DNA of 64,000 nt from Tritrichomonas musculus (lineage: Eukaryota; Parabasalia; Tritrichomonadida; Tritrichomonadidae). The notes below the pieces were generated by a model that was given only the letters and a program-made list of their open reading frames with translations, did not search any database and was not told the origin of the DNA. The DNA lies in NCBI GenBank assembly GCA_039105265.1, contig JAPFFF010000012.1:3968001-4032000 (forward strand). The letters are read 5' to 3'. Numbering within the stretch: position 1 is the stretch's first letter; each line of letters begins with the position of its first letter. This document shows, piece by piece, positions 2,385 to 43,730 of the stretch. Both the position numbers and the translations under genes were made by a program.

Positions 2385-2393
2385 AATAATATC
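2385..2393 (+). repeat. Left target-site duplication of the 28-kb MULE
   Basis: AATAATATC sits immediately before the GGCGA tip of the element and is repeated exactly after the TCGCC tip at 30429-30437. Nine bases is the usual duplication length for the Mutator/MULE superfamily, which fits the transposase inside. Confidence 0.92.
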
Positions 2394-2576
2394 GGCGAAT
2401 GGACATTTCTCTCAAAAATGTAATCCACTTTTTCTGAAATATAAAAACTTTTTGTGAAAATGAATAGTCTTTCAAAAAGTTAAAATTTTGTGATAGAAGA
2501 TAAAGCGCCATTTTCAACAAGGTTTCTCCAATATTCAAAGCAAATGCATGATAACAAACTTGATTTCAAGATAACA
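2394..2576 (+). repeat. Left terminal inverted repeat tip
   Basis: This unique outer segment is reproduced in inverse orientation at 30246-30428 and 20182-20364. Between left and right tips I see two mismatches in the first 33 bases and close to identity after that. It is the likely transposase recognition end. Confidence 0.93.
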
Positions 2577-3374
2577 GACTGCCGAACACGATATCAAGAA
2601 TACGGAATCCCACAAAAAGCAACCAAATCGAGTTACAGACTACCGAACACGATATCAAGAATACGGAATCCCACAAAAAGCAACCAAATCGAGTTACAGA
2701 CTACCGAGCACGATATCAAGAATACGGAATCCCACAAAAAGCAACCAAATCGAGTTACAGACTACCGAACACGATATCAAGAATACGGAATCCCACAAAA
2801 AGCAACCAAATCGAGTTACAGACTACCGAGCACGATATCAAGAATACGGAATCCCACAAAAAGCAACCAAATCGAGTTACAGACTACCGAACACGATATC
2901 AAGAATACGGAATCCCACAAAAAGCAACCAAATCGAGTTACAGACTACCGAACACGATATCAAGAATACGGAATCCCACAAAAAGCAACCAAATCGAGTT
3001 ACAGACTACCGAGCACGATATCAAGAATACGGAATCCCACAAAAAGCAACCAAATCGAGTTACAGACTACCGAGCACGATATCAAGAATACGGAATCCCA
3101 CAAAAAGCAACCAAATCGAGTTACAGACTACCGAACACGATATCAAGAATACGGAATCCCACAAAAAGCAACCAAATCGAGTTACAGACTACCGAACACG
3201 ATATCAAGAATACGGAATCCCACAAAAAGCAACCAAATCGAGTTACAGACTACCGAACACGATATCAAGAATACGGAATCCCACAAAAAGCAACCAAATC
3301 GAGTTACAGACTACCGAACACGATATCAAGAATACGGAATCCCATAAAAAGCAACCAAATCAAGTTACAAGTTA
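2577..3374 (+). repeat. 61-bp minisatellite, left arm (13 copies)
   Basis: Thirteen units of 61 bp (core CCGAACACGATATCAAGAAT at 2582, 2643, ... 3314), with a biallelic CCGAACAC/CCGAGCAC site. The last unit has CCCATAAAAAGC and AAATCAAG changes that also occur in the matching edge unit of both right arms, so the array edge is conserved across arms. Because 61 is not a multiple of three, the frame rotates from unit to unit, yet no stop appears through 2490-3347. Confidence 0.95.
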
Positions 3375-3419
3375 TCTGACTAGAAACAGCGTATGCTTCC
3401 AGTGCATTATAATCAGCAC

Positions 3420-6400
3420 ATTCTTCGATGCATCGCTAACATCGCATGAATCAGATGCATCAACAGCATCGCATGATTCCGATGCATCAACAGCATCGCA
3501 TGATTCCGATGCATCAACAGCATCGCATGCTTCAGATGCATCAACAGCATCGCATGCTTCAGATGCATCAACAGCATCGCATGATTCCAATGCATCAATA
3601 GCATCGCATGCTTCAGATGCATCAATAGCATCGCATGCTTCAGATGCATCAACAGCATCGCATGCTTCAGATGCATCAATAGCATCGCATGCTTCAGATG
3701 CATCAACAGCATCGCATGCTTCAGATGCATCAACAGCATCGCATGCTTCAGATGCATCAATAACATCGCATGCTTCAGATGCATCAACAGCATCGCATGC
3801 TTCAGATGCATCAACAGCATCGCATGCTTCAGATGCATCAATAGCATCGCATGATTCCGATGCATAAACAGCATCGCATGCTTCCGATGCATCAATAGCA
3901 TCGCATGATTCCGATGCATAAACAGCATCGCATGCTTCCGATGCATCAATAGCATCGCATGCTTCCGATGCATCAATAGCATCGCATGCTTCCGATGCAT
4001 CAATAGCATCGCATGCTTCAGATGCATCAACAGCATCGCATGATTCCGATGCATCAACAGCATCGCATGATTCCGATGCATCAACAGCATCGCATGATTC
4101 AGATGCATCAACAGCATCGCATGCTTCCGATGCATCAATAGCATCGCATGCTTCCGATGCATCAACAGCATCGCATGCTTCAGATGCATCAACAGCATCG
4201 CATGCTTCAGATGCATCAACAGCATCGCATGCTTCAGATGCATCAACAGCATCGCATGCTTCAGATGCATCAACAGCATCGCATGCTTCAGATGCATCAA
4301 CAGCATCGCATGCTTCCGATGCATCAATAGCATCGCATGCTTCCGATGCATCAATAGCATCGCATGCTTCAGATGCATCAACAGCATCGCATGCTTCAGA
4401 TGCATCAACAGCATCGCATGCTTCAGATGCATCAACAGCATCGCATGCTTCCGATGCATCAACAGCATCGCATGCTTCCGATGCATCAATAGCATCGCAT
4501 GCTTCAGATGCATCAACAGCATCGCATGCTTCCGATGCATCAACAGCATCGCATGCTTCAGATGCATCAACAGCATCACATGATTCCGATGCATCAACAG
4601 CATCGCATGCTTCAGATGCATCAACAGCATCACATGATTCCGATGCATCAACAGCATCGCATGCTTCCGATGCATCAACAGCATCGCATGCTTCAGATGC
4701 ATCAACAGCATCACATGATTCCGATGCATCAACAGCATCGCATGCTTCCGATGCATCAACAGCATCGCATGCTTCAGATGCATCAACAGCATCACATGAT
4801 TCCGATGCATCAACAGCATCGCATGCTTCAGATGAATCAACAGAATCGCATGCTTCAGATGCATCAACAGCATCGCATGCTTCAGATGCATCAACAGCAT
4901 CGCATGATTCCGATGCATCAACAGCATCCCATGCTTCAGATGCATCAACAGCATCGCATGCTTCCGATGCATCAACAGCATCGCATGATTCAGATGCATC
5001 AACAGCATCGCATGCTTCAGATGCATCAACAGAATCGCATGATTCAGATGCATCAATAGCATCGCATGCTTCAGATGCATCAACAGCATCGCATGCTTCA
5101 GATGCATCAATAGCATCGCCTGCTTCAGATGCATCAACAGCATCGCATGCTTCAGATGCATCAATAGCATCGCATGAATCAGATGCATCAATAGCATCGC
5201 ATGCTTCAGATGCATCAACAGCATCGCATGCTTCAGATGCATCAATAGTATCGCATGAATCAGATGCATCAACAGCATCGCATGCTTCCGATGCATCAAC
5301 AGCATCGCATGCTTCCGATGCATCAACAGCATCGCATGATTCAGATGCATCAACAGCATCGCATGCTTCAGATGCATCAACAACATCGCATGAATCAGAT
5401 GCATCAATAGCATCGCATGCTTCAGATGCATCAACAGCATCGCATGCTTCAGATGCATCAACAGCATCGCATGCTTCAGATGCATCAACAGCATCGCATG
5501 CTTCAGATGCATCAATAACATCGCATGCTTCAGATGCATCAACAGCATCGCATGCTTCAGATGCATCAACAGCATCGCATGCTTCAGATGCATCAACAGC
5601 ATCACATGATTCCGATGCATCAACAGCATCGCATGCTTCAGATGCATCAACAGCATCACATGATTCCGATGCATCAACAGCATCGCATGCTTCCGATGCA
5701 TCAACAGCATCGCATGCTTCAGATGCATCAACAGCATCACATGATTCCGATGCATCAACAGCATCGCATGCTTCAGATGAATCAACAGAATCGCATGCTT
5801 CAGATGCATCAACAGCATCGCATGCTTCAGATGCATCAACAGCATCGCATGATTCCGATGCATCAACAGCATCCCATGCTTCAGATGCATCAACAGCATC
5901 GCATGCTTCCGATGCATCAACAGCATCGCATGATTCCGATGCATCAACAGCATCGCATGCTTCAGATGCATCAACAGAATCGCATGATTCAGATGCATCA
6001 ATAGCATCGCATGCTTCAGATGCATCAACAGCATCGCATGCTTCAGATGCATCAATAGCATCGCCTGCTTCAGATGCATCAACAGCATCGCATGCTTCAG
6101 ATGCATCAATAGCATCGCATGAATCAGATGCATCAATAGCATCGCATGCTTCAGATGCATCAACAGCATCGCATGCTTCAGATGCATCAATAGTATCGCA
6201 TGAATCAGATGCATCAACAGCATCGCATGCTTCCGATGCATCAACAGCATCGCATGCTTCCGATGCATCAACAGCATCGCATGATTCAGATGCATCAACA
6301 GCATCGCATGCTTCAGATGCATCAACAACATCGCATGAATCAGATGCATCAATAGCATCGCATGCTTCAGATGCATCAACAGCATCGCATGCTTCAGATG

Positions 6401-8475
6401 CATCAACAGCATCGCATGCTTCAGATGCATCAACAGCATCGCATGCTTCAGATGCATCAACAGCATCGCATGCTTCAGATGCATCAATAACATCGCATGC
6501 TTCAGATGCATCAACAGCATCGCATGCTTCCGATGCATCAACAGCATCGCATGCTTCAGATGCATCAACAGAATCGCATGCTTCAGATGCATCAACAGCA
6601 TCGCATGCTTCAGATGCATCAACAACATCGCATGAATCAGATGCATCAATAGCATCGCATGCTTCAGATGCATCAACAGCATCGCATGCTTCAGATGCAT
6701 CAATAACATCGCATGCTTCAGATGCATCAACAGCATCGCATGCTTCAGATGCATCAACAGCATCGCATGCTTCAGATGCATCAACAGAATCGCATGCTTC
6801 AGATGCATCAACAGCATCGCATGCTTCCGATGCATCAATAGCATCGCATGCTTCCGATGCATCAACAGCATCGCATGGTTCCGATGAGTCAACAGCATCG
6901 CATGCTTCAGATGCATCAACAGCATCGCATGCTTCAGATGCATCAATAGTATCGCATGAATCAGATGCATCAACAGCATCGCATGCTTCCGATGCATCAA
7001 CAGCATCGCATGCTTCAGATGCATCAACAGCATCGCATGCTTCAGATGCATCAACAGCATCGCATGATTCCGATGCATCAACAGCATCGCATGCTTCCGA
7101 TGCATCAATAGCATCGCATGCTTCAGATGCATCAACAGCATCGCATGCTTCAGATGCATCAACAGCATCGCATGCTTCCGATGCATCAACAGCATCGCAT
7201 GCTTCCGATGCGTCAACAGCATCGCATGATTCAGATGCATCAACGGCATCGCATGCTTCAGATGCATAAACAGCATCGCATGCTTCAGATGCATCAACAG
7301 CATCGCATGCTTCCGATGCATCAACAGCATCGCATGCTTCAGATGCATCAATAGCATCGCATGCTTCAGATGCATCAACGGCATCGCATGCTTCCGATGC
7401 ATCAACAGCATCACATGATTCCGATGCATCAACAGCATCGCATGATTCCGATGCATCAACGGCATCGCATGCTTCCGATGCGTCAACAGCATCGCATGCT
7501 TCAGATGCATCAACGGCATCGCATGCTTCCGATGCATCAACAGCATCGCATGCTTCAGATGCATCAACAGCATCGCATGCTTCAGATGCATCAACAGTAT
7601 CGCATGCTTCAGATGCATCAATAACATCGCATGAATCAGATGCATCAACAGCATCGCATGCTTCCGATGCATCAATAGCATCGCATGCTTCCGATGCATC
7701 AATAGCATCGCATGCTTCCGATGCATCAACAGCATCGCATGCTTCCGATGCATCAATAGCATCGCATGCTTCAGATGCATCAACAGCATCGCATGCTTCC
7801 GATGCATCAACAGCATCGCATGATTCAGATGCATCAACAGCATCGCATGCTTCAGATGCATCAACAGCATCACATGATTCAGATGCATCAACAGCATCGC
7901 ATGCTTCAGATGCATCAACAGCATCGCATGCTTCCGATGCATCAATAGTATCGCATGCTTCCGATGCATCAACAGCATCGCATGCTTCCGATGCATCAAC
8001 AGCATCGCATGCTTCAGATGCATCAATAGTATCGCATGATTCAGATGCATAAATAACATCGCATGATTCCGATGCATCAACAGCATCGCATGCTTCAGAT
8101 GCATCAACGGCATCGCATGCTTCCGATGCATCAACAGCATCGCATGCTTCAGATGCATCAATAGCATCGCATGCTTCAGATGCATCAACAGCATCGCATG
8201 CTTCCGATGCATCAACAGCATCGCATGATTCAGATGCATCAACAGCATCGCATGCTTCAGATGCATCAACAGCATCGCATGATTCAGATGCATCAACAGC
8301 ATCGCATGCTTCAGATGCATCAACAGCATCGCATGCTTCCGATGCATCAATAGTATCGCATGAATCAGATGCATCAACAGCATCGCATGCTTCCGATGCA
8401 TCAACAGCATCGCATGCTTCAGATGCATCAATAGTATCGCATGATTCAGATGCATAAATAACATCGCATATTTTT
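3420..8475 (-). repeat. 27-bp minisatellite, left arm (~187 units)
   Basis: The unit, read on the minus strand, is GATGCATCT-GAAGCATGC-GATGCTGTT. Three common biallelic sites vary: CTGAA/CGGAA, GAAGCATG/GAATCATG and CTGTT/CTATT. The unit contains palindromes GATGCATC and GCATGC. Segments several hundred bases long recur inside the array (for example about 4560-5040 against 5590-6000), showing higher-order duplication. The inner edge, beyond 8455, decays into ATGCATC-like remnants toward the transposase. Several frames are open simply because a 27-bp unit without stops stays open. Confidence 0.95.
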
Positions 8476-8651
8476 AATGCATCATAATCAGAATTGCATA
8501 CTTACAACCAATTCTAAAAAACGCATACTTCAAGTTCAATATTTCGAAGAAAGCATGCTTCTCATATAAAAAATCTATCATAATTAAATTTGATTTTTTT
8601 ATTTTATATTTATAATTCATTTTTTAGATTTTTTATTTTATTAATTAAATC

Positions 8652-10925
8652 TTATTTAGTTTCTTTATGAAAGAATTTATTGCTTTTAGCTTTTTCATCT
8701 GCATCTTTCCAGCTTTGTATTTTCATTAAAGCTAGCAAATCTGGGATATTTTCGGAATTTCGATCATTGTTATGGAAAATAATTTTCATGAAATTATTGA
8801 AGCATATAGAAGCTGGGTTTTCCATTTTGGGATACATTGAAATAATTTCGTTAACAGTTTCATTATATTTGATTTTGATCATTATTTCCATTGGATCATC
8901 TCCCGGATCAAACCAATCCATATGTTTGTCATTTATGACTTTCATTGCTTTTACAGGAGGATTCCTTGTTGTTTCATTAAAGGGATAATATTCTTTAACA
9001 GGTTCTTTGAGAAAAACATTTGTTCTGTCTTTGTCATCAACTTTGTAGAATTCTGGTAGAGTATAAGACAAACTATCTATAAATGCATTTATTATTACAG
9101 ATAAATCTGTCTTATTTGTAGTTGGATGAATATTCGCATATTGGTTTAAAATTTTGTGAATATTCTTATTTGATTCAAATGTATCTTTGTATGCTGAATT
9201 GTAAAATTTTAGTTGAAACGTGTCTAAACATATTAAAGCAAATTCATTAAAATCAAAATCCAAATTATTTCTTTGAAATGTTATAAAATTTTCATCATGT
9301 ATTATTGTATAAAGTACTTGGTGTATGCATGGGAAACGGACTCCAAAAATAGATTCATTATATAGATCATCTTCGCATGAACAGTTTTCCTTTGAATATT
9401 TCAAATATTTTTTGGAACCTTTTACAAATATTTGCTTAAGTTTAATGATTATTTTTTCATGCTTGTTTTTGAATGCATCTCCATATGTACTTGAGCGTCT
9501 TTGCAAATAATTAAGAAGATAATTAACAACTGCAGAAAAACCAGTACGAACGCATGTTTGTCCACTTGTGCTCAATGATTGATTAATGTTTGCATGACAG
9601 CCTTCACAGTGATTACTGCACCTACCAACATGGTTAATTCTGCGCATCCAAATGGCCCAATTTGCAAGATAATAATTACTTTTTTTTATTTCTGGACTTA
9701 CATTTTCTTCTGGGTCAATTAACATAATTAAAAGGTTCTTGACACTTTTTTCTGTAGTAGTTGTATTAAAACCGAAATTTTTTAAAAATGAGTGATATGT
9801 TGTAATCTCAGAAATATAAAACTTTCTCATTTTCAAAAAATCTCTGAGGCTTTTGATTTTCAAAATTTTGGATGCCCACAAACCGAAAATACTGCTTGAA
9901 CCTATGTTTTCTATCAAATGACGATGGCATAGATTTTGACTCATTCCGTGATCTGCGCAAAATTTCTTAATGGCAGATCCTAAATCAGAAAGAGTTGGTT
10001 TATTTTCAAAGTTTTGCTTTGAAATGTGATGCTTTTGTAAACCAACAAAAAGCATATCAAATAATTCACTGCATTCGCTTGGAAATAACGTAACAGCGAA
10101 TGGCAGTGAATTATTATATATGATTCCATGAAAAATGCAATAGTGGTAAGGTTCACATGCCTTATATGAACCATCTATTTCGATATAGTGGCAGTCTTTT
10201 GACACTTTTTCTGCCCATGGCATGATCCATGCCAAAGAAGCCAGAATGCTTTTTTTATTATCAATGTTCATTATCAAAGGCTTGTGTTTGAGTTGTGGCT
10301 CCTCTTTAATTGCAGAATACTCCATGTATACAAACCCCGGTAAGTGTTCAAGTATTTTAATAAAATCATCATATACAGTTATAAATTTTTTATTTCTATT
10401 GTGAGTTTTTTGATTCAAAAAACCATCGAAAGTATATTTCAAAAAAATAGGAGCGCATGTGTTTTTTTTAGCTGCATAATTACCAAAATTATATAGCACA
10501 GAGTCTTTATAAGGGAACTGAGAATCCCATTTGTGGTTTTCGAAATAAAAAACTTGGTTATTTTCAGTTGAGAATGCCTTGAAAGTTAAGCAATTTTCGT
10601 CATCGATTTTCGATTGTTTAATACGACGAATTTCATCTTGTACGTAAACTTTATACTTGGAATCTTCGAATTTAATTTTGACAATTATGCATGGGTGGAA
10701 ATCTTGATGAAGATCAACATGTGAGGCGTACATAATAAATGAATTTTTTCTGACTGCTTTATAGTAACAAATATAATCGATTGTTATTGAATCTGCGAAT
10801 TCTATGAATGAAGATATATCAAAATCGCTTTTATTGAACGGAATTATCTGAATTGGACGGGATTGATGTACCGAATCAAGAATAAAATCATCAAATTGTA
10901 TTTTTTTTGCAGAATAGTTGAGCAT
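8652..10925 (-). CDS. MULE transposase (Mutator superfamily), 757 aa
   Basis: This is the only protein gene of the 28-kb element and presumably cuts and joins its ends in the nucleus. Seen in the sequence: a DDE core with D251 (motif IEIDGSYK), D314 (LSDLGSAIKKFC) followed by NLCHRHLIEN at 332-341, and a candidate third acid E441 in SNHCEGCHANINQ, which sits where MULEs carry their N-x-x-E-x-x-x motif. A SWIM-type zinc knuckle follows, C515-x-C517-x15-C533-x-H535. No N-terminal zinc finger or helix-turn-helix is obvious in residues 1-220, unlike the second MULE of this window. The frame is open over its full length and starts at an ATG, so the gene may be functional. It lies between the two inverted 27-bp arrays with only ~180-200 bp of spacer on each side, so its promoter must lie in that spacer or in array DNA. 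The class assignment is firm; the catalytic residues are assigned by eye. Confidence 0.9.
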   Translation of the reverse strand: MLNYSAKKIQFDDFILDSVHQSRPIQIIPFNKSDFDISSFIEFADSITIDYICYYKAVRKNSFIMYASHVDLHQDFHPCIIVKIKFEDSKYKVYVQDEIRRIKQSKIDDENCLTFKAFSTENNQVFYFENHKWDSQFPYKDSVLYNFGNYAAKKNTCAPIFLKYTFDGFLNQKTHNRNKKFITVYDDFIKILEHLPGFVYMEYSAIKEEPQLKHKPLIMNIDNKKSILASLAWIMPWAEKVSKDCHYIEIDGSYKACEPYHYCIFHGIIYNNSLPFAVTLFPSECSELFDMLFVGLQKHHISKQNFENKPTLSDLGSAIKKFCADHGMSQNLCHRHLIENIGSSSIFGLWASKILKIKSLRDFLKMRKFYISEITTYHSFLKNFGFNTTTTEKSVKNLLIMLIDPEENVSPEIKKSNYYLANWAIWMRRINHVGRCSNHCEGCHANINQSLSTSGQTCVRTGFSAVVNYLLNYLQRRSSTYGDAFKNKHEKIIIKLKQIFVKGSKKYLKYSKENCSCEDDLYNESIFGVRFPCIHQVLYTIIHDENFITFQRNNLDFDFNEFALICLDTFQLKFYNSAYKDTFESNKNIHKILNQYANIHPTTNKTDLSVIINAFIDSLSYTLPEFYKVDDKDRTNVFLKEPVKEYYPFNETTRNPPVKAMKVINDKHMDWFDPGDDPMEIMIKIKYNETVNEIISMYPKMENPASICFNNFMKIIFHNNDRNSENIPDLLALMKIQSWKDADEKAKSNKFFHKETK

Positions 10926-11129
10926 TATTGATATAAAAGTAAAACTTTTATAAAATATTTTGAATAATCATTAAGAATTTTTTGAATACTCCATGAATAA
11001 TTAAAAAGAAAATATATATAAAATATTATATTTTAAGAAATTTTTATTAGGCAATTAAATTCTTTAATTAATTAGGAATCGTTTGGTATTTATGATGTAT
11101 TTGTCGAATGTGCTGTTGTTGATGAACGT

Positions 11130-14100
11130 GAAGTATGTGGTTTTGTTGATGCATCGGAAGCATGCGATGCTGTTGATGCATCTGATTCATGCGATGCTAT
11201 TGATGCATCTGAAGCATGCGATGCTGTTGATGCATCGGAAGCATGCGATGCTGTTGATGCATCTGAAGCATGCGATGCTGTTGATGCATCTGAAGCATGC
11301 GATGCTGTTGATGCATCGGAATCATGCGATGCTGTTGATGCATCGGAAGCATGCGATGCTGTTGATGCATCGGAAGCATGCGATGCTGTTGATGCATCGG
11401 AAGCATGCGATGCTATTGATGCATCTGAAGCATGCGATGCTGTTGATGCATCGGAAGCATGCGATGCTATTGATGCATCTGAAGCATGCGATGCTGTTGA
11501 TGCATCTGATTCATGCGATGCTATTGATGCATCTGAAGCATGCGATGCTGTTGATGCATCGGAAGCATGCGATGCTGTTGATGCATCTGAAGCATGCGAT
11601 GCTGTTGATGCATCTGAAGCATGCGATGCTGTTGATGCATCGGAATCATGCGATGCTGTTGATGCATCGGAAGCATGCGATGCTGTTGATGCATCGGAAG
11701 CATGCGATGCTGTTGATGCATCGGAAGCATGCGATGCTATTGATGCATCGGAAGCATGCGATGCTGTTGATGCATCGGAAGCATGCGATGCTATTGATGC
11801 ATCTGAAGCATGCGATGCTGTTGATGCATCGGAAGCATGCGATGCTGTTGATGCATCGGAATCATGCGATGCTATTGATGCATCGGAAGCATGCGATGCT
11901 ATTGATGCATCTGAAGCATGCGATGCTGTTGATGCATCTGAAGCATGCGATTCTATTGATGCATCTGAAGCATGCGATGCTATTGATGCATCTGAAGCAT
12001 GCGATGCTATTGATGCATCTGAAGCATGCGATGCTATTGATGCATCTGAAGCATGCGATGCTGTTGATGCATCGGAAGCATGCGATGCTGTTGATGCATC
12101 TGAAGCATGCGATGCTATTGATGCATCGGAATCATGCGATGCTGTTGATGCATCGGAAGCATGCGATGCTGTTGATGCATCGGAAGCATGCGATGCTGTT
12201 GATGCATCGGAATCATGCGATGCTATTGATGCATCTGAAGCATGCGATGCTGTTGATGCATCTGAAGTATGCGATGCTGTTGATGCATCTGAAGCATGCG
12301 ATGCTATTGATGCATCTGAAGCATGCGATGCTATTGATGCATCGGAATCATGCGATGCTGTTGATGCATCGGAATCATGCGATGCTGTTGATGCATCTGA
12401 AGCATGCGATGCTGTTGATGCATCGGAATCATGCGATGCTATTGATGCATCGGAAGCATGCGATGCTATTGATGCATCGGAAGCATGCGATGCTATTGAT
12501 GCATCGGAAGCATGCGATGCTGTTGATGCATCGGAAGCATGCGATGCTATTGATGCATCTGAAGCATGCGATGCTGTTGATGCATCGGAAGCATGCGATG
12601 CTGTTGATGCATCGGAATCATGCGATGCTATTGATGCATCGGAAGCATGCGATGCTATTGATGCATCTGAAGCATGCGATGCTGTTGATGCATCTGAAGC
12701 ATGCGATTCTATTGATGCATCTGAAGCATGCGATGCTATTGATGCATCTGAAGCATGCGATGCTATTGATGCATCTGAAGCATGCGATGCTATTGATGCA
12801 TCTGAAGCATGCGATGCTGTTGATGCATCGGAAGCATGCGATGCTGTTGATGCATCGGAATCATGCGATGCTATTGATGCATCTGAAGCATGCGATGCTG
12901 TTGATGCATCTGAAGTATGCGATGCTGTTGATGCATCTGAAGCATGCGATGCTATTGATGCATCTGAAGCATGCGATGCTATTGATGCATCGGAATCATG
13001 CGATGCTGTTGATGCATCGGAATCATGCGATGCTGTTGATGCATCTGAAGCATGCGATGCTGTTGATGCATCGGAATCATGCGATGCTATTGATGCATCG
13101 GAAGCATGCGATGCTATTGATGCATCGGAAGCATGCGATGCTATTGATGCATCGGAAGCATGCGATGCTGTTGATGCATCGGAAGCATGCGATGCTATTG
13201 ATGCATCTGAAGCATGCGATGCTGTTGATGCATCGGAAGCATGCGATGCTATTGATGCATCGGAAGCATGCGATGCTATTGATGCATCTGAAGCATGCGA
13301 TGCTATTGATGCATCTGAAGCATGCGATGCTGTTGATGCATCTGAAGCATGCGATTCTATTGATGCATCTGAAGCATGCGATGCTATTGATGCATCTGAA
13401 GCATGCGATGCTATTGATGCATCTGAAGCATGCGATGCTATTGATGCATCTGAAGCATGCGATGCTGTTGATGCATCGGAAGCATGCGATGCTGTTGATG
13501 CATCTGAAGCATGCGATGCTATTGATGCATCTGAAGCATGCGATGCTGTTGATGCATCGGAAGCATGCGATGCTATTGATGCATCTGAAGCATGCGATGC
13601 TGTTGATGCATCGGAAGCATGCGATGCTGTTGATGCATCGGAATCATGCGATGCTATTGATGCATCTGAAGCATGCGATGCTATTGATGCATCTGAAGCA
13701 TGCGATGCTGTTGATGCATCTGAAGCATGCGATTCTATTGATGCATCTGAAGCATGCGATGCTATTGATGCATCGGAATCATGCGATGCTATTGATGCAT
13801 CTGAAGCATGCGATGCTATTGATGCATCTGAAGCATGCGATGCTGTTGATGCATCTGAAGCATGCGATGCTGTTGATGCATCTGAAGCATGCGATGCTGT
13901 TGATGCATCGGAATCATGCGATGCTATTGATGCATCGGAAGCATGCGATGCTATTGATGCATCGGAAGCATGCGATGCTATTGATGCATCTGAAGCATGC
14001 GATGCTGTTGATGCATCGGAATCATGCGATGCTGTTGATGCATCTGAAGCATGCGATGCTGTTGATGCATCTGAAGCATGCGATGCTGTTGATGCATCGG

Positions 14101-18672: not shown

Positions 18673-18719
18673 GATTATAATGCACTGGAAGCATACGCTG
18701 TTTCTAGTCAGATAACTTG

Positions 18720-20178
18720 TAACTTGATTTGGTTGCTTTTTATGGGATTCCGTATTCTTGATATCGTGTTCGGTAGTCTGTAACTCGATTTGGTTGCTTT
18801 TTGTGGGATTCCGTATTCTTGATATCGTGCTCGGTAGTCTGTAACTCGATTTGGTTGCTTTTTGTGGGATTCCGTATTCTTGATATCGTGCTCGGTAGTC
18901 TGTAACTCGATTTGGTTGCTTTTTGTGGGATTCCGTATTCTTGATATCGTGTTCGGTAGTCTGTAACTCGATTTGGTTGCTTTTTGTGGGATTCCGTATT
19001 CTTGATATCGTGCTCGGTAGTCTGTAACTCGATTTGGTTGCTTTTTGTGGGATTCCGTATTCTTGATATCGTGTTCGGTAGTCTGTAACTCGATTTGGTT
19101 GCTTTTTGTGGGATTCCGTATTCTTGATATCGTGTTCGGTAGTCTGTAACTCGATTTGGTTGCTTTTTGTGGGATTCCGTATTCTTGATATCGTGTTCGG
19201 TAGTCTGTAACTCGATTTGGTTGCTTTTTGTGGGATTCCGTATTCTTGATATCGTGTTCGGTAGTCTGTAACTCGATTTGGTTGCTTTTTGTGGGATTCC
19301 GTATTCTTGATATCGTGTTCGGTAGTCTGTAACTCGATTTGGTTGCTTTTTGTGGGATTCCGTATTCTTGATATCGTGCTCGGTAGTCTGTAACTCGATT
19401 TGGTTGCTTTTTGTGGGATTCCGTATTCTTGATATCGTGTTCGGTAGTCTGTAACTCGATTTGGTTGCTTTTTGTGGGATTCCGTATTCTTGATATCGTG
19501 TTCGGTAGTCTGTAACTCGATTTGGTTGCTTTTTGTGGGATTCCGTATTCTTGATATCGTGCTCGGTAGTCTGTAACTCGATTTGGTTGCTTTTTGTGGG
19601 ATTCCGTATTCTTGATATCGTGTTCGGTAGTCTGTAACTCGATTTGGTTGCTTTTTGTGGGATTCCGTATTCTTGATATCGTGTTCGGTAGTCTGTAACT
19701 CGATTTGGTTGCTTTTTGTGGGATTCCGTATTCTTGATATCGTGTTCGGTAGTCTGTAACTCGATTTGGTTGCTTTTTGTGGGATTCCGTATTCTTGATA
19801 TCGTGCTCGGTAGTCTGTAACTCGATTTGGTTGCTTTTTGTGGGATTCCGTATTCTTGATATCGTGCTCGGTAGTCTGTAACTCGATTTGGTTGCTTTTT
19901 GTGGGATTCCGTATTCTTGATATCGTGTTCGGTAGTCTGTAACTCGATTTGGTTGCTTTTTGTGGGATTCCGTATTCTTGATATCGTGTTCGGTAGTCTG
20001 TAACTCGATTTGGTTGCTTTTTGTGGGATTCCGTATTCTTGATATCGTGTTCGGTAGTCTGTAACTCGATTTGGTTGCTTTTTGTGGGATTCCGTATTCT
20101 TGATATCGTGCTCGGTAGTCTGTAACTCGATTTGGTTGCTTTTTGTGGGATTCCGTATTCTTGATATCGTGTTCGGCA
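18720..20178 (-). repeat. 61-bp minisatellite, right arm A (24 copies)
   Basis: Twenty-four 61-bp units (GATATCGTG marker from 18760 to 20163, every 61 bp) in inverse orientation to the left-arm array. Same unit, same TTCGG/CTCGG alleles and same variant edge unit. A minus-strand frame stays open through all 24 units and into the 27-bp array. Confidence 0.95.
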
Positions 20179-20181
20179 GTT

Positions 20182-20364
20182 TGTTATCTTGAAATCAAGT
20201 TTGTTATCATGCATTTGCTTTGAATATTGGAGAAACCTTGTTGAAAATGGCGCTTTATCTTCTATCACAAAATTTTAACTTTTTGAAAGACTATTCATTT
20301 TCACAAAAAGTTTTTATATTTCAGAAAAAGTGGATTACATTTTTGAGAGAAATGTCTACTCGCC
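20182..20364 (-). repeat. Internal (buried) transposon tip
   Basis: A complete copy of the right tip, ending TACTCGCC at 20364. It is not followed by flanking DNA but directly by the 27-bp array of arm B (GATGCTGTTGATGCATCGG...). It differs from the true right tip at 30246-30428 by very little; one T/C change in CGGCAGTTTG/CGGCAGTCTG is visible. It marks the junction of a tandem duplication of the right arm. Confidence 0.92.
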
Positions 20365-23300
20365 GATGCTGTTGATGCATCGGAAGCATGCGATGCTATT
20401 GATGCATCTGAAGCATGCGATGCTGTTGATGCATCTGAAGCATGCGATGCTATTGATGCATCTGAAGCATGCGATGCTATTGATGCATCGGAAGCATGCG
20501 ATGCTGTTGATGCATCGGAAGCATGCGATGCTGTTGATGCATCGGAAGCATGCGATGCTGTTGATGCATCTGAAGCATGCGATGCTGTTGATGCATCGGA
20601 AGCATTCGATGCTATTGATGCATCTGAAGCATGCGATGCTATTGATGCATCGGAAGCATTCGATGCTATTGATGCATCTGAAGCATGCGATGCTATTGAT
20701 GCATCGGAAGTATGCGATGCTGTTGATGCATCGGAAGCATGCGATGCTATTGATGCATCTGAAGCATGCGATGCTATTGATGCATCGGAAGTATGCGATG
20801 CTGTTGATGCATCGGAAGCATGCGATGCTATTGATGCATCGGAAGCATTCGATGCTATTGATGCATCTGAAGCATGCGATGCTGTTGATGCATCGGAAGC
20901 ATGCGATGCTATTGATGCATCTGAAGCATGCGATGCTATTGATGCATCGGAAGCATGCGATGCTGTTGATGCATCGGAAGCATGCGATGCTATTGATGCA
21001 TCTGAAGCATTCGATGCTATTGATGCATCGGAAGCATGCGATGCTGTTGATGCATCGGAAGCATGCGATGCTGTTGATGCATCGGAAGCATGCGATGCTG
21101 TTGATGCATCTGAAGCATGCGATGCTGTTGATGCATCGGAAACATTCGATGCTATTGATGCATCTGAAGCATGCGATGCTATTGATGCATCGGAAGCATT
21201 CGATGCTATTGATGCATCTGAAGCATGCGATGCTATTGATGCATCGGAAGTATGCGATGCTGTTGATGCATCGGAAGCATGCGATGCTATTGATGCATCT
21301 GAAGCATGCGATGCTATTGATGCATCGGAAGTATGCGATGCTGTTGATGCATCGGAAGCATGCGATGCTATTGATGCATCGGAAGCATTCGATGCTATTG
21401 ATGCATCTGAAGCATGCGATGCTGTTGATGCATCGGAAGCATTCGATGCTATTGATGCATCTGAAGCATTCGATGCTGTTGATGCATCGGAAGCATGCGA
21501 TGCTATTGATGCATCGGAAGCATTCGATGCTATTGATGCATCTGAAGCATGCGATGCTGTTGATGCATCTGAAGCATGCGATGCTATTGATGCATCGGAA
21601 GCATGCGATGCTATTGATGCATCGGAAGCATGCGATGCTATTGATGCATCGGAAGCATTCGATGCTATTGATGCATCTGAAGCATGCGATGCTATTGATG
21701 CATCGGAAGTATGCGATGCTGTTGATGCATCGGAAGCATGCGATGCTATTGATGCATCGGAATCATGCGATGCTGTTGATGCATCGGAATCATGCGATGC
21801 TGTTGATGCATCTGAAGCATGCGATGCTATTGATGCATCGGAAGCATGCGATGCTATTGATGCATCTGAAGCATGCGATGCTATTGATGCATTGGAATCA
21901 TGCGATGCTGTTGATGCATCTGAAGCATGCGATGCTGTTGATGCATCGGAATCATGCGATGCTGTTGATGCATCTGAAGCATGCGATGCTGTTGACGCAT
22001 CGGAAGCATGCGATGCTTTTGATGCATCTGAAGCATGCGATGCTGTTGATGCATCTGAATCATGCGATGCTGTTGATGCATCTGAATCATGCGATGCTGT
22101 TGATGCATCTGAAGCATGCGATGCTATTGATGCATCTGAAGCATGCGATGCTGTTGATGCATCGGAAGCATGCGATGCTGTTGATGCATCGGAAGCATGC
22201 GATGCTGTTGATGCATCTGAAGCATGCGATGCTGTTTATGCATCGGAAGCATGCGATGCTTTTGATGCATCTGAAGCATGCGATGCTATTGATGCATCTG
22301 AAGCATGCGATGCTGTTTATGCATCTGAAGCATGCGATGCTGTTGATGCATCTGAAGCATGCGATGCTGTTTATGCATCTGAAGCATGCGATGCTGTTTA
22401 TGCATCGGAAGCATGCGATGCTTTTGATGCATCTGAAGCATGCGATGCTATTGATGCATCTGAAGCATGCGATGCTGTTGATGCATCTGAAGCATGCGAT
22501 GCTGTTGATGCATCGGAAGCATGCGATGCTGTTTATGCATCGGAAGCATGCGATGCTGTTGATGCATCTGAAGCATGCGATGCTGTTGATGCATCTGAAG
22601 CATGCGATGCTGTTGATGCATCTGAAGCATGCGATGCTGTTGATGCATCTGAAGCATGCGATGCTGTTGATGCATCTGAAGCATGCGATGCTGTTGATGC
22701 ATCGGAAGCATGCGATGCTATTGATGCATCTGAAGCATGCGATGCTGTTGATGCATCTGAATCATGCGATGCTATTGATGTATCGGAATCATGCGATTCT
22801 GTTGATGCATCTGAAGCATGCGATTCTATTGATGCATCGGAATCATGCGATGCTGTTGATGCATCGGAATCATGCGATGCTGTTGATGCATCTGAAGCAT
22901 GCGATGCTATTGATGCATCGGAAGTATGCGATGCTGTTGATGCATCGGAAGCATGCGATGCTATTGATGCATCGGAATCATGCGATGCTGTTGATGCATC
23001 TGAAGCATGCGATGCTGTTGATGCATCTGAATCATGCGATGCTATTGATGCATCTGATGCATGCGATGCTGTTGATGCATCTGAATCATGCGATGCTGTT
23101 GATGCATCTGAATCATGCGATGCTGTTGATGCATCTGAATCATGCGATGCTGTTGATGCATCTGAAGCATGCGATGCTGTTGATGCATCTGAATCATGCG
23201 ATGCTGTTGATGCATCTGAATCATGCGATGCTATTGATGCATCTGAAGCATGCGATGCTGTTGATGCATCGGAATCATGCGATGCTGTTGATGCATCTGA

Positions 23301-26300
23301 AGCATGCGATGCTGTTGATGCATCTGAAGCATGCGATGCTATTGATGCATCTGAAGCATGCGATGCTGTTGATGCATCTGAAGCATGCGATGCTGTTGAT
23401 GCATCTGAATCATGCGATGCTGTTGATGCATCTGAAGCATGCGATGCTGTTGATGCATCTGAATCATGCGATGCTGTTGATGCATCTGAATCATGCGATG
23501 CTGTTGATGCATCGGAAGCATGCGATGCTGTTGATGCATCTGAAGCATGCGATGCTGTTGATGCATCTGAATCATGCGATGCTGTTGATGCATCTGAATC
23601 ATGCGATGCTATTGATGCATCTGAAGCATGCGATGCTGTTGATGCATCGGAATCATGCGATGCTGTTGATGCATCTGAAGCATGCGATGCTGTTGATGCA
23701 TCTGAAGCATGCGATGCTATTGATGCATCTGAAGCATGCGATGCTGTTGATGCATCTGAAGCATGCGATGCTGTTGATGCATCGGAAGCATGCGATGCTA
23801 TTGATGCATCTGAAGCATGCGATGCTATTGATGCATCGGAAGTATGCGATGCTGTTGATGCATCGGAAGCATGCGATGCTATTGATGCATCTGAAGCATG
23901 CGATGCTATTGATGCATCGGAAGTATGCGATGCTGTTGATGCATCGGAAGCATGCGATGCTATTGATGCATCGGAAGCATTCGATGCTATTGATGCATCT
24001 GAAGCATGCGATGCTGTTGATGCATCGGAAGCATTCGATGCTATTGATGCATCTGAAGCATTCGATGCTGTTGATGCATCGGAAGCATGCGATGCTATTG
24101 ATGCATCGGAAGCATTCGATGCTATTGATGCATCTGAAGCATGCGATGCTGTTGATGCATCGGAAGCATGCGATGCTATTGATGCATCGGAAGCATGCGA
24201 TGCTATTGATGCATCGGAAGCATGCGATGCTATTGATGCATCGGAAGCATTCGATGCTATTGATGCATCTGAAGCATGCGATGCTATTGATGCATCGGAA
24301 GTATGCGATGCTGTTGATGCATCGGAAGCATGCGATGCTATTGATGCATCGGAATCATGCGATGCTGTTGATGCATCGGAATCATGCGATGCTGTTGATG
24401 CATCTGAAGCATGCGATGCTATTGATGCATCGGAAGCATGCGATGCTATTGATGCATCTGAAGCATGCGATGCTATTGATGCATTGGAATCATGCGATGC
24501 TGTTGATGCATCTGAAGCATGCGATGCTGTTGATGCATCGGAATCATGCGATGCTGTTGATGCATCTGAAGCATGCGATGCTGTTGATGCATCTGAAGCA
24601 TGCGATGCTGTTGATGCATCGGAATCATGCGATGCTGTTGATGCATCTGAAGCATGCGATGCTGTTGATGCATCTGAAGCATGCGATGCTATTGATGCAT
24701 CGGAAGCATGCGATGCTATTGATGCATCTGAAGCATGCGATGCTATTGATGCATTGGAATCATGCGATGCTGTTGATGCATCTGAAGCATGCGATGCTGT
24801 TGATGCATCGGAATCATGCGATGCTGTTGATGCATCTGAAGCATGCGATGCTGTTGATGCATCGGAAGCATGCGATGCTTTTGATGCATCTGAAGCATGC
24901 GATGCTGTTGATGCATCTGAATCATGCGATGCTGTTGATGCATCTGAATCATGCGATGCTGTTGATGCATCGGAAGCATGCGATGCTTTTGATGCATCTG
25001 AAGCATGCGATGCTGTTGATGCATCGGAAGCATGCGATGCTGTTGATGCATCGGAAGCATGCGATGCTGTTGATGCATCTGAAGCATGCGATGCTGTTTA
25101 TGCATCGGAAGCATGCGATGCTTTTGATGCATCTGAAGCATGCGATGCTATTGATGCATCTGAAGCATGCGATGCTGTTTATGCATCTGAAGCATGCGAT
25201 GCTGTTGATGCATCTGAAGCATGCGATGCTGTTTATGCATCTGAAGCATGCGATGCTGTTTATGCATCGGAAGCATGCGATGCTTTTGATGCATCTGAAG
25301 CATGCGATGCTATTGATGCATCTGAAGCATGCGATGCTGTTGATGCATCTGAAGCATGCGATGCTGTTGATGCATCGGAAGCATGCGATGCTGTTTATGC
25401 ATCGGAAGCATGCGATGCTGTTGATGCATCTGAAGCATGCGATGCTGTTGATGCATCTGAAGCATGCGATGCTGTTGATGCATCTGAAGCATGCGATGCT
25501 GTTGATGCATCTGAAGCATGCGATGCTGTTGATGCATCTGAAGCATGCGATGCTGTTGATGCATCTGAAGCATGCGATGCTATTGATGCATCTGAAGCAT
25601 GCGATGCTGTTGATGCATCTGAATCATGCGATGCTATTGATGTATCGGAATCATGCGATTCTGTTGATGCATCTGAAGCATGCGATTCTATTGATGCATC
25701 GGAATCATGCGATGCTGTTGATGCATCGGAATCATGCGATGCTGTTGATGCATCTGAAGCATGCGATGCTATTGATGCATCGGAAGTATGCGATGCTGTT
25801 GATGCATCGGAAGCATGCGATGCTATTGATGCATCGGAATCATGCGATGCTGTTGATGCATCTGAAGCATGCGATGCTGTTGATGCATCTGAATCATGCG
25901 ATGCTATTGATGCATCTGATGCATGCGATGCTGTTGATGCATCTGAATCATGCGATGCTGTTGATGCATCTGAATCATGCGATGCTGTTGATGCATCTGA
26001 ATCATGCGATGCTGTTGATGCATCTGAATCATGCGATGCTATTGATGCATCTGAAGCATGCGATGCTGTTGATGCATCTGAATCATGCGATGCTGTTGAT
26101 GCATCTGAAGCATGCGATGCTGTTGATGCATCTGAAGCATGCGATGCTATTGATGCATCTGAAGCATGCGATGCTGTTGATGCATCTGAAGCATGCGATG
26201 CTGTTGATGCATCGGAAGCATGCGATGCTATTGATGCATCTGAAGCATGCGATGCTGTTGATGCATCTGAATCATGCGATGCTATTGATGCATCGGAATC

Positions 26301-28736
26301 ATGCGATTCTGTTGATGCATCTGAAGCATGCGATTCTATTGATGCATCGGAATCATGCGATGCTGTTGATGCATCGGAATCATGCGATGCTGTTGATGCA
26401 TCTGAAGCATGCGATGCTATTGATGCATCGGAAGTATGCGATGCTGTTGATGCATCGGAAGCATGCGATGCTATTGATGCATCGGAATCATGCGATGCTG
26501 TTGATTCATCTTAAGCATGCGATGCTGTTGATGCATCTGAATCATGCGATGCTATTGATGCATCTGAAGCATGCGATGCTGTTGATGCATCTGAATCATG
26601 CGATGCTATTGATGCATCTGAATCATGCGATGCTGTTGATGCATCTGAATCATGCGATGCTGTTGATGCATCGGAATCATGCGATGCTGTTGATGCATCT
26701 GAAGCATGCGATGCTGTTGATGCATCGGAAGCATTCGATGCTGTTGATGCATCGGAAGCATTCGATGCTGTTGATGCATCTGAATCATGCGATGCTATTG
26801 ATGCATCGGAAGCATGCGATGCTGTTGATGCATCGGAATCATACGATGCTGTTGATGCATCGGAATCATGCGATGCTGTTGATGCATCTGAATCATGCGA
26901 TGCTGTTGATGCATCTGAATCATGCGATGCTGTTGATGCATCTGAAGCATGCGATGCTGTTGATGCATCGGAATCATGCGATGCTGTTGATGCATCTGAA
27001 GCATGCGATGCTGTTGATGCATCGGAATCATGCGATGCTGTTGATGCATCTGAAGCATGCGATGCTGTTGATGCATCGGAATCATGCGATGCTGTTGATG
27101 CATCGGAATCATGCGATGCTGTTGATGCATCGGAATCATGCGATGCTGTTGATGCATCTGAAGCATGCGATGCTATTGATGCATCGGAAGTATGCGATGC
27201 TGTTGATGCATCGGAAGCATGCGATGCTATTGATGCATCGGAATCATGCGATGCTGTTGATTCATCTTAAGCATGCGATGCTGTTGATGCATCTGAATCA
27301 TGCGATGCTGTTGATGCATCTGAATCATGCGATGCTGTTGATGCATCTGAATCATGCGATGCTGTTGATTCATCTTAAGCATGCGATGCTGTTGATGCAT
27401 CTGAATCATGCGATGCTGTTGATTCATCTTAAGCATGCGATGCTATTGATGCATCGGAAGTATGCGATGCTGTTGATGCATCTGAAGCATGCGATGCTGT
27501 TGATGCATCTGAAGCATGCGATGCTGTTGATGCATCTGAATCATGCGATGCTATTGATGCATCTGATGCATGCGATGCTGTTGATGCATCTGAATCATGC
27601 GATGCTGTTGATGCATCTGAATCATGCGATGCTATTGATGCATCTGAAGCATGCGATGCTGTTGATGCATCGGAATCATGCGATGCTGTTGATGCATCTG
27701 AAGCATGCGATGCTGTTGATGCATCTGAAGCATGCGATGCTATTGATGCATCTGAAGCATGCGATGCTGTTGATGCATCGGAAGCATGCGATGCTATTGA
27801 TGCATCGGAAGCATGCGATGCTGTTGATGCATCTGAAGCATGCGATGCTGTTGATGCATCTGAAGCATGCGATGCTGTTGATGCATCGGAATCATGCGAT
27901 GCTGTTGATGCATCGGAAGCATGCGATGCTGTTGATGCATCTGAAGCATGCGATGCTATTGATGCATCGGAAGCATGCGATGCTGTTGATGCATCTGAAG
28001 CATGCGATGCTGTTGATGCATCTGAAGCATGCGATGCTGTTGATGCATCGGAATCATGCGATGCTGTTGATGCATCGGAAGCATGCGATGCTGTTGATGC
28101 ATCTGAAGCATGCGATGCTGTTGATGCATCTGAAGCATGCGATGCTGTTGATGCATCTGAAGCATGCGATGCTGTTGATGCATCGGAAGCATGCGATGCT
28201 GTTGATGCATCTGAAGCATGCGATGCTGTTGATGCATCGGAAGCATTCGATGCTATTGATTCATCGGAATCATGCGATGCTGTTGATGCATCTGAAGCAT
28301 GCGATGCTGTTGATGCATCTGAAGCATGCGATGCTATTGATGCATCTGAAGCATGCGATGCTGTTGATGCATCTGAAGCATGCGATGCTGTTGATGCATC
28401 TGAAGCATGCGATGCTGTTGATGCATCGGAATCATGCGATGCTGTTGATGCATCTGAAGCATGCGATGCTGTTGATGCATCGGAAGCATGCGATGCTGTT
28501 GATGCATCTGAAGCATGCGATGCTGTTGATGCATCTGAAGCATGCGATGCTGTTGATGCATCTGAAGCATGCGATGCTGTTGATGCATCTGAAGCATGCG
28601 ATGCTGTTGATGCATCGGAATCATGCGATGCTGTTGATGCATCTGAAGCATGCGATGCTGTTGATGCATCGGAATCATGCGATGCTGTTGATGCATCTGA
28701 TTCATGCGATGTTGGCGATGCATCGAAGAATGTGCT
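20365..28736 (+). repeat. 27-bp minisatellite, right arm B (~310 units)
   Basis: Starts abruptly after the buried tip. Its first units match, in variant order, the arm A array from about 16026 onward, including the rare GAAGCATTCG and GAAGTATGCG variants. Large internal duplications are visible (about 21,600-22,980 against 24,180-25,860). A variant with a stop (GATTCATCTTAAGC) occurs at about 26504, 27259, 27369 and 27423. The outer ~780 bp match the outer end of arm A at a constant offset of 10,064 bp. Confidence 0.95.
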
Positions 28737-28783
28737 GATTATAATGCACTGGAAGCATACGCTGTTTCTAGTCAGATAACTTG

Positions 28784-30242
28784 TAACTTGATTTGGTTGC
28801 TTTTTATGGGATTCCGTATTCTTGATATCGTGTTCGGTAGTCTGTAACTCGATTTGGTTGCTTTTTGTGGGATTCCGTATTCTTGATATCGTGCTCGGTA
28901 GTCTGTAACTCGATTTGGTTGCTTTTTGTGGGATTCCGTATTCTTGATATCGTGCTCGGTAGTCTGTAACTCGATTTGGTTGCTTTTTGTGGGATTCCGT
29001 ATTCTTGATATCGTGTTCGGTAGTCTGTAACTCGATTTGGTTGCTTTTTGTGGGATTCCGTATTCTTGATATCGTGTTCGGTAGTCTGTAACTCGATTTG
29101 GTTGCTTTTTGTGGGATTCCGTATTCTTGATATCGTGTTCGGTAGTCTGTAACTCGATTTGGTTGCTTTTTGTGGGATTCCGTATTCTTGATATCGTGTT
29201 CGGTAGTCTGTAACTCGATTTGGTTGCTTTTTGTGGGATTCCGTATTCTTGATATCGTGTTCGGTAGTCTGTAACTCGATTTGGTTGCTTTTTGTGGGAT
29301 TCCGTATTCTTGATATCGTGTTCGGTAGTCTGTAACTCGATTTGGTTGCTTTTTGTGGGATTCCGTATTCTTGATATCGTGTTCGGTAGTCTGTAACTCG
29401 ATTTGGTTGCTTTTTGTGGGATTCCGTATTCTTGATATCGTGCTCGGTAGTCTGTAACTCGATTTGGTTGCTTTTTGTGGGATTCCGTATTCTTGATATC
29501 GTGTTCGGTAGTCTGTAACTCGATTTGGTTGCTTTTTGTGGGATTCCGTATTCTTGATATCGTGTTCGGTAGTCTGTAACTCGATTTGGTTGCTTTTTGT
29601 GGGATTCCGTATTCTTGATATCGTGCTCGGTAGTCTGTAACTCGATTTGGTTGCTTTTTGTGGGATTCCGTATTCTTGATATCGTGTTCGGTAGTCTGTA
29701 ACTCGATTTGGTTGCTTTTTGTGGGATTCCGTATTCTTGATATCGTGTTCGGTAGTCTGTAACTCGATTTGGTTGCTTTTTGTGGGATTCCGTATTCTTG
29801 ATATCGTGTTCGGTAGTCTGTAACTCGATTTGGTTGCTTTTTGTGGGATTCCGTATTCTTGATATCGTGCTCGGTAGTCTGTAACTCGATTTGGTTGCTT
29901 TTTGTGGGATTCCGTATTCTTGATATCGTGCTCGGTAGTCTGTAACTCGATTTGGTTGCTTTTTGTGGGATTCCGTATTCTTGATATCGTGTTCGGTAGT
30001 CTGTAACTCGATTTGGTTGCTTTTTGTGGGATTCCGTATTCTTGATATCGTGTTCGGTAGTCTGTAACTCGATTTGGTTGCTTTTTGTGGGATTCCGTAT
30101 TCTTGATATCGTGTTCGGTAGTCTGTAACTCGATTTGGTTGCTTTTTGTGGGATTCCGTATTCTTGATATCGTGCTCGGTAGTCTGTAACTCGATTTGGT
30201 TGCTTTTTGTGGGATTCCGTATTCTTGATATCGTGTTCGGCA
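28784..30242 (-). repeat. 61-bp minisatellite, right arm B (24 copies)
   Basis: Same 24-unit array as arm A, displaced by 10,064 bp. Most variant units are in the same order, though a few TTCGG/CTCGG alleles differ (for example the fifth unit), which argues for a real duplication followed by slight divergence. Confidence 0.95.
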
Positions 30243-30245
30243 GTC

Positions 30246-30428
30246 TGTTATCTTGAAATCAAGTTTGTTATCATGCATTTGCTTTGAATATTGGAGAAAC
30301 CTTGTTGAAAATGGCGCTTTATCTTCTATCACAAAATTTTAACTTTTTGAAAGACTATTCATTTTCACAAAAAGTTTTTATATTTCAGAAAAAGTGGATT
30401 ACATTTTTGAGAGAAATGTCTACTCGCC
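30246..30428 (-). repeat. Right terminal inverted repeat tip
   Basis: Inverse copy of 2394-2576, ending GAGAGAAATGTCTACTCGCC at 30428 and followed at once by the 9-bp duplication. Confidence 0.93.
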
Positions 30429-30437
30429 AATAATATC
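30429..30437 (+). repeat. Right target-site duplication of the 28-kb MULE
   Basis: AATAATATC, identical to 2385-2393, abuts the TCGCC tip. Confidence 0.92.
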
Positions 30438-34423: not shown

Positions 34424-34632
34424 AAAAGAAATCGAGAGAAATCATGTATTTATTAAGATTATATATATAAAAATTCAAAAATTATTCTCGTTGTCCAATG
34501 TCAAAAAAAAAAAAAAAAAAAAAAAAATATGATCAAGGATCCTTGATCTCCAACCATTAAATTACTTTATTGGATATGAATTTTCTTCCTAGAATTAATT
34601 GGGTTTCTTCATCTCTTTTTGGTAAAAATTTG

Positions 34633-34664
<32 letters not shown>

Positions 34665-34859
34665 ATGGCTGGATGTTCATTATATATAACACCTAATATT
34701 TTTAGTGAAAGATGTTATAATGAAAAATCATATGTTTGTTCATTTGAAGTTTTATTGTATGAAAGTTTTATAAATTCATCTGTTTATCATCGCGATTATT
34801 CTTATTATACAAAAGAAATAAAACATAATTCGCTTCAAAATTTAGTTGAACGATGGTAA
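34665..34859 (+). CDS. Small open frame, 64 aa, unknown
   Basis: ATG just after an A tract, ending TGGTAA. Codon and residue use (Tyr, Asn, Ser rich, NSLQNLVERW at the end) looks more protein-like than other short frames nearby, so it may be a genuine small gene or the remnant of a larger one. No family recognised, no signal peptide or membrane helix. It lies 165 bp upstream of the DUF2828 gene on the same strand. Confidence 0.25.
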   Translation: MAGCSLYITPNIFSERCYNEKSYVCSFEVLLYESFINSSVYHRDYSYYTKEIKHNSLQNLVERW

Positions 34860-35009
34860 AATCGAGATCTGAATCAAAGAATATTTATCAAAGAAATTAT
34901 CAATTAAATTCTGATGTCATAATTATTTAAAATTTTACAATTCTCAAAAAGTTCCAAAAATTTTATAAAATTTTGTTTATAAAAATATCAATAAAATGAT
35001 TATTTTACT

Positions 35010-35015
35010 TCATTT
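35010..35015 (+). promoter_or_regulatory. Possible initiator element (TCATTT)
   Basis: TCATTT lies 8 bp before the ATG at 35024. It fits the trichomonad initiator consensus TCA(Y)(W), which sits within about 20 nt of the start codon. Short and AT-rich, so chance is possible. Confidence 0.3.
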
Positions 35016-35023
35016 CTATTTCG

Positions 35024-37465: not shown

Positions 37466-37495
37466 CAAAGACGTTTAACATTTTTTATTTTTAAA

Positions 37496-43449: not shown

Positions 43450-43491
<42 letters not shown>

Positions 43492-43727: not shown

Positions 43728-43730
43728 ATA

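Follow-up and report, generated by a model that had tools for sequence, protein, structure and literature searches.

Among described Mutator-like elements (MULEs), those closest to the locus reported here are Tm1 Mutator/Foldback of Meloidogyne and Muta1 and Muta5 of Aedes aegypti, which we cite, like the other published systems below, from passages of the papers named. Tm1 has a MULE-type transposase within composite terminal inverted repeats (TIRs) that hold a variable number of tandem motifs, with 9-bp target-site duplications and different terminal motifs at its two ends; its motif is about 14 bp long, its elements measure a few kilobases (a 3,154-bp clone, amplicons of 0.9 and 2.3 kb) and it has a FLYWCH finger (PMC3169594). 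Muta1 and Muta5 have tandem repeats inside the TIR and 8-9-bp duplications, with TIRs of about 150 bp, nine copies of a 12-15-bp unit and a total length of 3.2-3.5 kb, and Muta1 is called a type-2 foldback (PMC5225508); FARE and Drosophila FB are mentioned in PMC3169594 and PMC4079207. The TIRs of MULEs are given as 14-500 bp across eukaryotes, with up to 640 bp in a table (PMC6446971), and in arthropods as 13-1,193 bp (1,527 bp in one table row) in whole elements of up to 10 kb (PMC13359780). The element we describe lies in a 64,000-nucleotide stretch of Tritrichomonas musculus DNA, hereafter the window (contig JAPFFF010000012.1, positions 3,968,001 to 4,032,000; G000:C12:3968001-4032000 in our own numbering), from an assembly of 193 Mb in 746 contigs; one host protein has 41% identity to Tritrichomonas foetus TRFO_15189 and 99% to an unnamed protein. 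It resembles these elements in the traits of architecture and target duplication listed above, and unlike Tm1 it has 61- and 27-bp arrays, arms of 6 and 19 kb, a doubled arm and a SWIM-like pattern in its transposase.

We propose that this insertion, which spans window 2394-30428 (28,035 bp), is probably an autonomous-looking cut-and-paste Mutator-like DNA transposon with a foldback architecture and arms built from arrays (Table 1). The 183-bp tips at its left and outer right ends differ at positions 6 and 8 only, and a perfect 9-bp duplication, AATAATATC, flanks them. From left to right the element consists of a tip, 13 units of 61 bp, a spacer, 187 units of 27 bp, a short AT-rich stretch, the transposase gene, a further AT-rich stretch and the right side, with 776 of the 27-bp units in all. 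Besides the frames that span the arrays, the element holds no second open reading frame (ORF) of at least 150 aa. The three acidic residues of the transposase, its CHRH and its CxC-x15-CxH are invariant in 10 of 10 aligned transposases, and D251, D314 and E441 are the putative catalytic residues. The CxC-x15-CxH, at residues 515-535, is SWIM-like as a pattern only, with no match to Pfam SWIM. The tips, the perfect duplication, the single transposase and the order tip, 61-bp array, spacer, 27-bp array are all present where the original prediction, made from the letters of the window, had placed them; its estimate of about 25 kb of repeat in 28 kb agrees with tandem-repeat arms that measure 90.5% of the 28,035 bp (6,077 bp on the left and 19,285 bp on the right), and its picture of an intact gene enclosed by inverted arms of repeats, in an element of foldback type that is probably Mutator-like, is supported. 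Of the two arms of 6-20 kb that it foresaw, the left one stands, while the single 19-kb right arm has to be replaced by two stacked arms with a third complete tip between them. Several frames run open through the arrays on either strand (window 2490-30332), giving ORFs of up to 2,802 aa; we rejected these as genes because a stop-free 27-bp unit stays open indefinitely, and they are probably a by-product of such units.

Table 1. Features of the 28,035-bp element and its target site, in window coordinates.
Feature	Position	Strand	Remarks
Left target-site duplication	2385..2393	.	AATAATATC; perfect match to right duplicate
Left tip (terminal inverted repeat proper)	2394..2576	+	terminus GGCGAATGG
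Left 61-bp array	2574..3369	+	13 units
Left spacer	3370..3418	+	about 49 bp
Left 27-bp array	3419..8469	+	187 units
Transposase gene	8652..10925	-	757 aa, one intact ORF; D251/D314/E441, CHRH, CxC-x15-CxH
Right arm 1, 27-bp array	11144..18674	-	279 units
Right arm 1 spacer	18675..18717	-	approximate
Right arm 1, 61-bp array	18718..20184	-	24 units
Internal tip	20182..20364	-	identical to outer right tip across 183 bp
Right arm 2, 27-bp array	20365..28738	-	310 units; abuts internal tip directly
Right arm 2 spacer	28739..28781	-	approximate
Right arm 2, 61-bp array	28782..30248	-	24 units
Outer right tip	30246..30428	-	terminus GGCGAGTAG (read inward)
Right target-site duplication	30429..30437	.	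AATAATATC; perfect 9-bp match to left duplicate

The same architecture is met in relatives of the element within the genome. A protein search listed at least 60 matches, a lower bound (59 of 482 candidates were scored), and these comprise the window element, a contig of 20,268 bases (C545), three pieces of one decayed copy (C71) and sister lineages; in three of these, A, B and C, the transposases are 35-41% identical. Fifty of the 60 belong to family A, assigned by like identity (39%) and length, of which six complete copies were fetched and examined; in a search with the family-A tip, 40 of 328 candidates were scored, all at 100%. The tips of A, B, C and the window element all start with GGCG, and a word near the inner edge of the tip, GCGCCATTTT, is common to the window element, A and B and was not found in the remaining 35.9 kb of the window. 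Family A ends in GGCGAAGTG and GGCGGAATG and has a perfect 9-bp duplication in all six complete copies. In family B the one copy with both ends in hand (L038) is flanked by a 9-bp duplication and shares with the window element both of its 16-bp termini, which differ from each other: GGCGAATGG lies 3' of the gene and GGCGAGTAG 5' of it in both elements, an arrangement with which the remnant ends of the decayed copy are compatible. Family C has duplications of 8 bp, read by eye from the flanks: exact in three of five pairs (one of them a run of A), matching at seven of eight bases in a fourth, and none in the fifth; the flanks of the C12 copy share 8 bases by eye. The arm units are 120 bp in A, 131 bp in B and 130 bp in C and are unlike in sequence. 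As each of the three sister lineages has its own arm sequence, it is the architecture that recurs and not the repeat.

Arrays stand on both sides of the gene in five of the six complete A copies, in L038 of family B and in L041 and L042 of family C, and tandem-repeat arms are therefore common in the clade, though perhaps not universal. Another family-B locus, L039, shows an array on one side only within the stretch fetched; its two facing tips lie 27.3 kb apart (G000:C3:2182875-2210172, first 7 kb fetched) and could belong to one large element or to a nest. Paired family-C tips are 3.2 to 15.3 kb apart, and in two elements fetched whole, of 3.2 kb (C12) and 4.0 kb (C5), the arrays are separated by about 590 bp, too little to hold the gene. 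The decayed copy on C71 keeps the order of the window element, with 2.2 units of 61 bp and six of 27 bp on one side and 3.4 units of 27 bp on the other; its left end is truncated and its gene is broken by stops and frame changes. Either the window lineage has grown its arms many-fold or this copy has lost most of its own. The search with the window tip listed seven matches, three of them inside the window element; a match on C42 is a 38-bp relic, and the surrounding 9 kb hold neither inverted arm arrays nor a match to the transposase. On C40 (L051 649-1150) a 61-bp array about 74% like that of the window element is immediately adjacent to a 30-bp array, which recalls the paired array types of the window element. 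We rejected it as a relative: it has three units at about 74%, the 30-bp array and AT-rich repeats, and no element was recognised in the 2.3 kb read.

The order of units within the right side points to how it came to be doubled. At the junction 20364|20365 a transposon terminus, placed by eye to within one base, is joined to the interior of a 27-bp array. Read from the tip inward, the two right arms have two base differences in their first 2,374, their 61-bp arrays differ in two of 24 units, and the order of their first 24 units of 27 bp agrees. At the opposite end, the 20 units of arm 2 that adjoin the internal tip correspond to units 77-96 of arm 1, where shuffled orders agree over at most 6 units in 100 trials. 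From this agreement in unit order and at the ends it follows that arm 2 was copied from arm 1, of which it reproduces the outer part between about unit 97 and the tip. The interior of arm 2 has gained about 210 units since the copying, or arm 1 has lost them; within arm 2 a block of 21 units recurs 106 units away. The left 27-bp array has no run of eight or more identical units in common with either right array. The contig C545 spans the inner tip-to-array junction, and its 20,000 fetched bases are identical to the reverse complement of window 24054..4055. We rejected it as a second insertion, since it is an exact redundant contig of the window locus, and as evidence for the junction it is perhaps not independent.

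Slippage or unequal exchange within the arrays would not produce this junction, which has a terminus on one side and the interior of an array on the other. Our tentative preference, at a little under an even chance and drawn from one example, is for an aberrant one-ended event, in which the cut right terminus of the copy on one chromatid would join the 27-bp array in the right arm of its sister. Such a join would duplicate everything from that point of the array to the tip, after which the copied 27-bp array would have expanded or arm 1 would have shrunk, and it would leave the outer duplication intact, as is observed. A serious competitor, which we also place below even chances, is that the right arm was doubled by ordinary repair of a break, through template switching or end joining after excision, and not by one-ended transfer. 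Additional arm modules are present in three of the six complete family-A copies, flanking the gene on both sides in L035 and L037 and on a single side in L036; their internal tips are truncated, they include the first 79 bp of the gene, and they look like the products of copying during repair. Against this account, the break in the window element coincides with the terminus to within one base, a position that breaks at random would seldom hit. A wider reading, to which we give somewhat less than an even chance, is that this trichomonad lineage harbours a clade that keeps building arms from fresh tandem repeats, the tips and the transposase persisting while the arm sequence is completely replaced, and that one-ended transposition of an element into its own arms is one way in which they grow, leaving tip-to-array junctions behind. 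If true, inverted minisatellites would be manufactured by this clade, and the 28-kb window element with its 776 units of the 27-bp repeat would be the largest product among those observed.

With regard to what the arms do, we favour by-products of hairpin-prone repeats and break repair over a binding platform. The transposase would act at the tips of roughly 183 bp, and the arrays would be carried along, growing or shrinking by slippage and also whenever breaks made by the transposase are repaired with the sister chromatid or the other arm as template. As single-stranded DNA, four of five units fold better than their shuffles (z -2.8 to -8.1), and a single strand of the 27-bp array folds on itself with z -6.9 as RNA and -3.0 as DNA. 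Ten of eleven control stretches gave z between -1.5 and +0.7; the eleventh, inside the transposase gene (10060-10115), holds a stem of about 20 bp that folds far better than shuffles (z -7.3). That selection keeps the arms as a platform for proteins, offering either extra transposase sites or targets of an anti-silencing protein that the element encodes, with the fast turnover of units between lineages as co-evolution, seems unlikely to us. Such platforms exist in VANDAL elements, whose targets are tandem repeats that diverge fast (PMC10398659), secondary sites occur in the arm repeats of Galileo and others (PMC3573991, PMC4079207), and arms do recur in three sister lineages. Yet in 20 tip-unit comparisons with 100 shuffles each, the window tip shared no word with its own arrays beyond what shuffles give: the longest were of 9 bases for the 61-bp unit, a length that 9 of 100 shuffles attained, and of 6 bases for the 27-bp unit, attained by 81 of 100. 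Furthermore, with one ORF of at least 150 aa outside the array frames, no separate VANC-like protein was seen. The best of the 20 comparisons, an 11-base word that the 61-bp unit has in common with the C tip (1 of 100 shuffles), and the next, a 10-base word between the B tip and the same unit (5 of 100), are unremarkable in such a number, and a common tip-array motif was rejected; between the units of different lineages words reach a raw length of at most 8 bases. The suggestion in the original prediction that the arms present hundreds of transposase sites thus finds no support in the sequence, while its giant hairpins are possible, although the 27-bp array can already fold within a single strand. 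As background to its hairpin RNA, a Dicer gene and small RNAs are reported in Trichomonas vaginalis (PMC7845603).

A number of results weigh against reading the element as a mobile, array-armed MULE of this history. A second intact insertion of its own family was not found in the genome; the further copies sought there amount to the redundant contig, the decayed copy and whole sister families. Evidence of mobility within the family is one intact insertion with a duplication, none being seen at the decayed copy, while the sister families have many copies. An empty site did not appear either: a query of the joined flanks, for which 40 of 59 candidates were scored, brought up its own two flanks and a weak match to itself, and the other 39 of the 42 matches are partial ones to dispersed short repeats. 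Among the sister lineages, L036 of family A lacks a right-hand array at the score used, in the 9.9 kb fetched of L040, a further lineage, no inverted arrays occur as a pair, and in two of six A copies (L035, L037) and in L039 of family B the end motifs have traded places with respect to the gene, as though the segment between the arms had flipped. The arm duplications of family A do not stop at the terminus of the tip, which leaves the one-ended model with its one example, and the 61-bp unit is not hairpin-prone (z +0.7). As for the transposase, it has no Pfam MULE match even at an E-value of 10 (one irrelevant match, 0.36), an NCBIfam search gave no match, no solved structure related by sequence was found, and comparing profiles with the MULE protein at 37496-41947, which is Pfam-positive, gave nothing; Pfam MULE is likewise absent from family A and from the four outside homologues scanned (P0001-P0004).

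These profile results bear on whether the transposase might belong to another DDE superfamily and resemble Mutator by convergence, which we think very unlikely. Besides its lack of a Pfam MULE match, it has only five homologues, none named, among 5.8 billion proteins searched. Against this stand Pfam MULE matches in three of four sister proteins (C, 3.4e-4; B, 0.005; L040, 0.012; all below the curated cut-off), the conserved CHRH and SWIM-like pattern, and the 8-9-bp duplications. The motifs and duplications favour, and the profiles weakly favour, what is probably a Mutator-like element. Finally, that the doubled arm or the array lengths are errors of assembly is scarcely credible: arrays of 5-8 kb are difficult to assemble and the assembly does hold C545, a redundant piece of this locus, but the right-hand 27-bp arrays differ in unit order over most of their length, so neither duplicates the other as a contig, and C545 carries the inner junction too.

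Several features of the surroundings deserve mention in their own right. The 94 bp to the left of the element (2299-2392) match 35 other places at 85-95% identity among the matches listed, 34 of which end at one base, 2392, and the transposon sits at the extreme end of such a repeat; on C7 two matches to it face outward over a span of 376 bp, resembling the TIRs of a small element. The second MULE transposase of the window (37496-41947; Pfam E 6.5e-14) has a long glutamine-rich repeat in its protein and a 126-bp array just upstream (36968-37467). It was rejected as a similar element, as the 25 longest of 114 inverted pairs in 34000-45000 show no arms; the longest is 55 nt at 71%, and the pairs shown are mostly A/T runs. 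A further tandem array, 65 units of 63 bp that are 99% alike, lies at 43729-47836.

Beyond Tm1 and the Muta elements, Tetris (PMC4079207) and Galileo (PMC3573991) of Drosophila have arms made of an outer domain and tandem units that change in number, and those of Galileo recruit internal sequence; Tetris is known only as non-autonomous, with arms of up to about 1.7 kb (PMC4079207), and Galileo is a P-type element with arms of up to about 1.3 kb (PMC3573991). Plant MULEs with multiple TIRs likewise stack an extra TIR at an end, but mostly at both ends (48 against 13 with a solo extra TIR), and their amplified members measure about 1.3-1.4 kb and have an origin that was left open (PMC3310237); in the window element an extra complete TIR is found at the right end only, and the unit order shows both the copied part and the site of the join. 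In Trichomonas vaginalis, also a parabasalid, TvMULE1-4 are MULEs that lack typical long TIRs according to their authors, and tandem arms are not seen in the passages at hand (PMC2725143); their TIRs measure 20-38 bp (PMC6446971), whereas in the window element the tips have 183 bp and the arms extend over 6.1 and 19.3 kb. Rehavkus shares the 9-bp duplication and a minisatellite near a TIR, but has the minisatellite before its 3' TIR only, a PHD finger and animal hosts (PMC6446971); the window protein has no PHD match at E-values up to 10. No parabasalid foldback MULE, nor any of this size, was among the matches listed from the open-licence literature, with most subscription papers and Repbase outside its reach. 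The element had been predicted to be of an undescribed type, which may hold for its size and layout and does not for its kind, published as Tm1 (PMC3169594) and Muta1 (PMC5225508): the class is known, and what look new are the scale, the doubled arm and the turnover of arm sequence within one clade. At 28 kb, and with its gene intact and its duplication perfect, the transposon stretches what such elements can carry. Because their unit order records history, its arms reveal how TIRs grow, the point left open for the multi-TIR MULEs of plants (PMC3310237), and they bear also on the seeding of satellites by transposons, as proposed for Tetris (PMC4079207).

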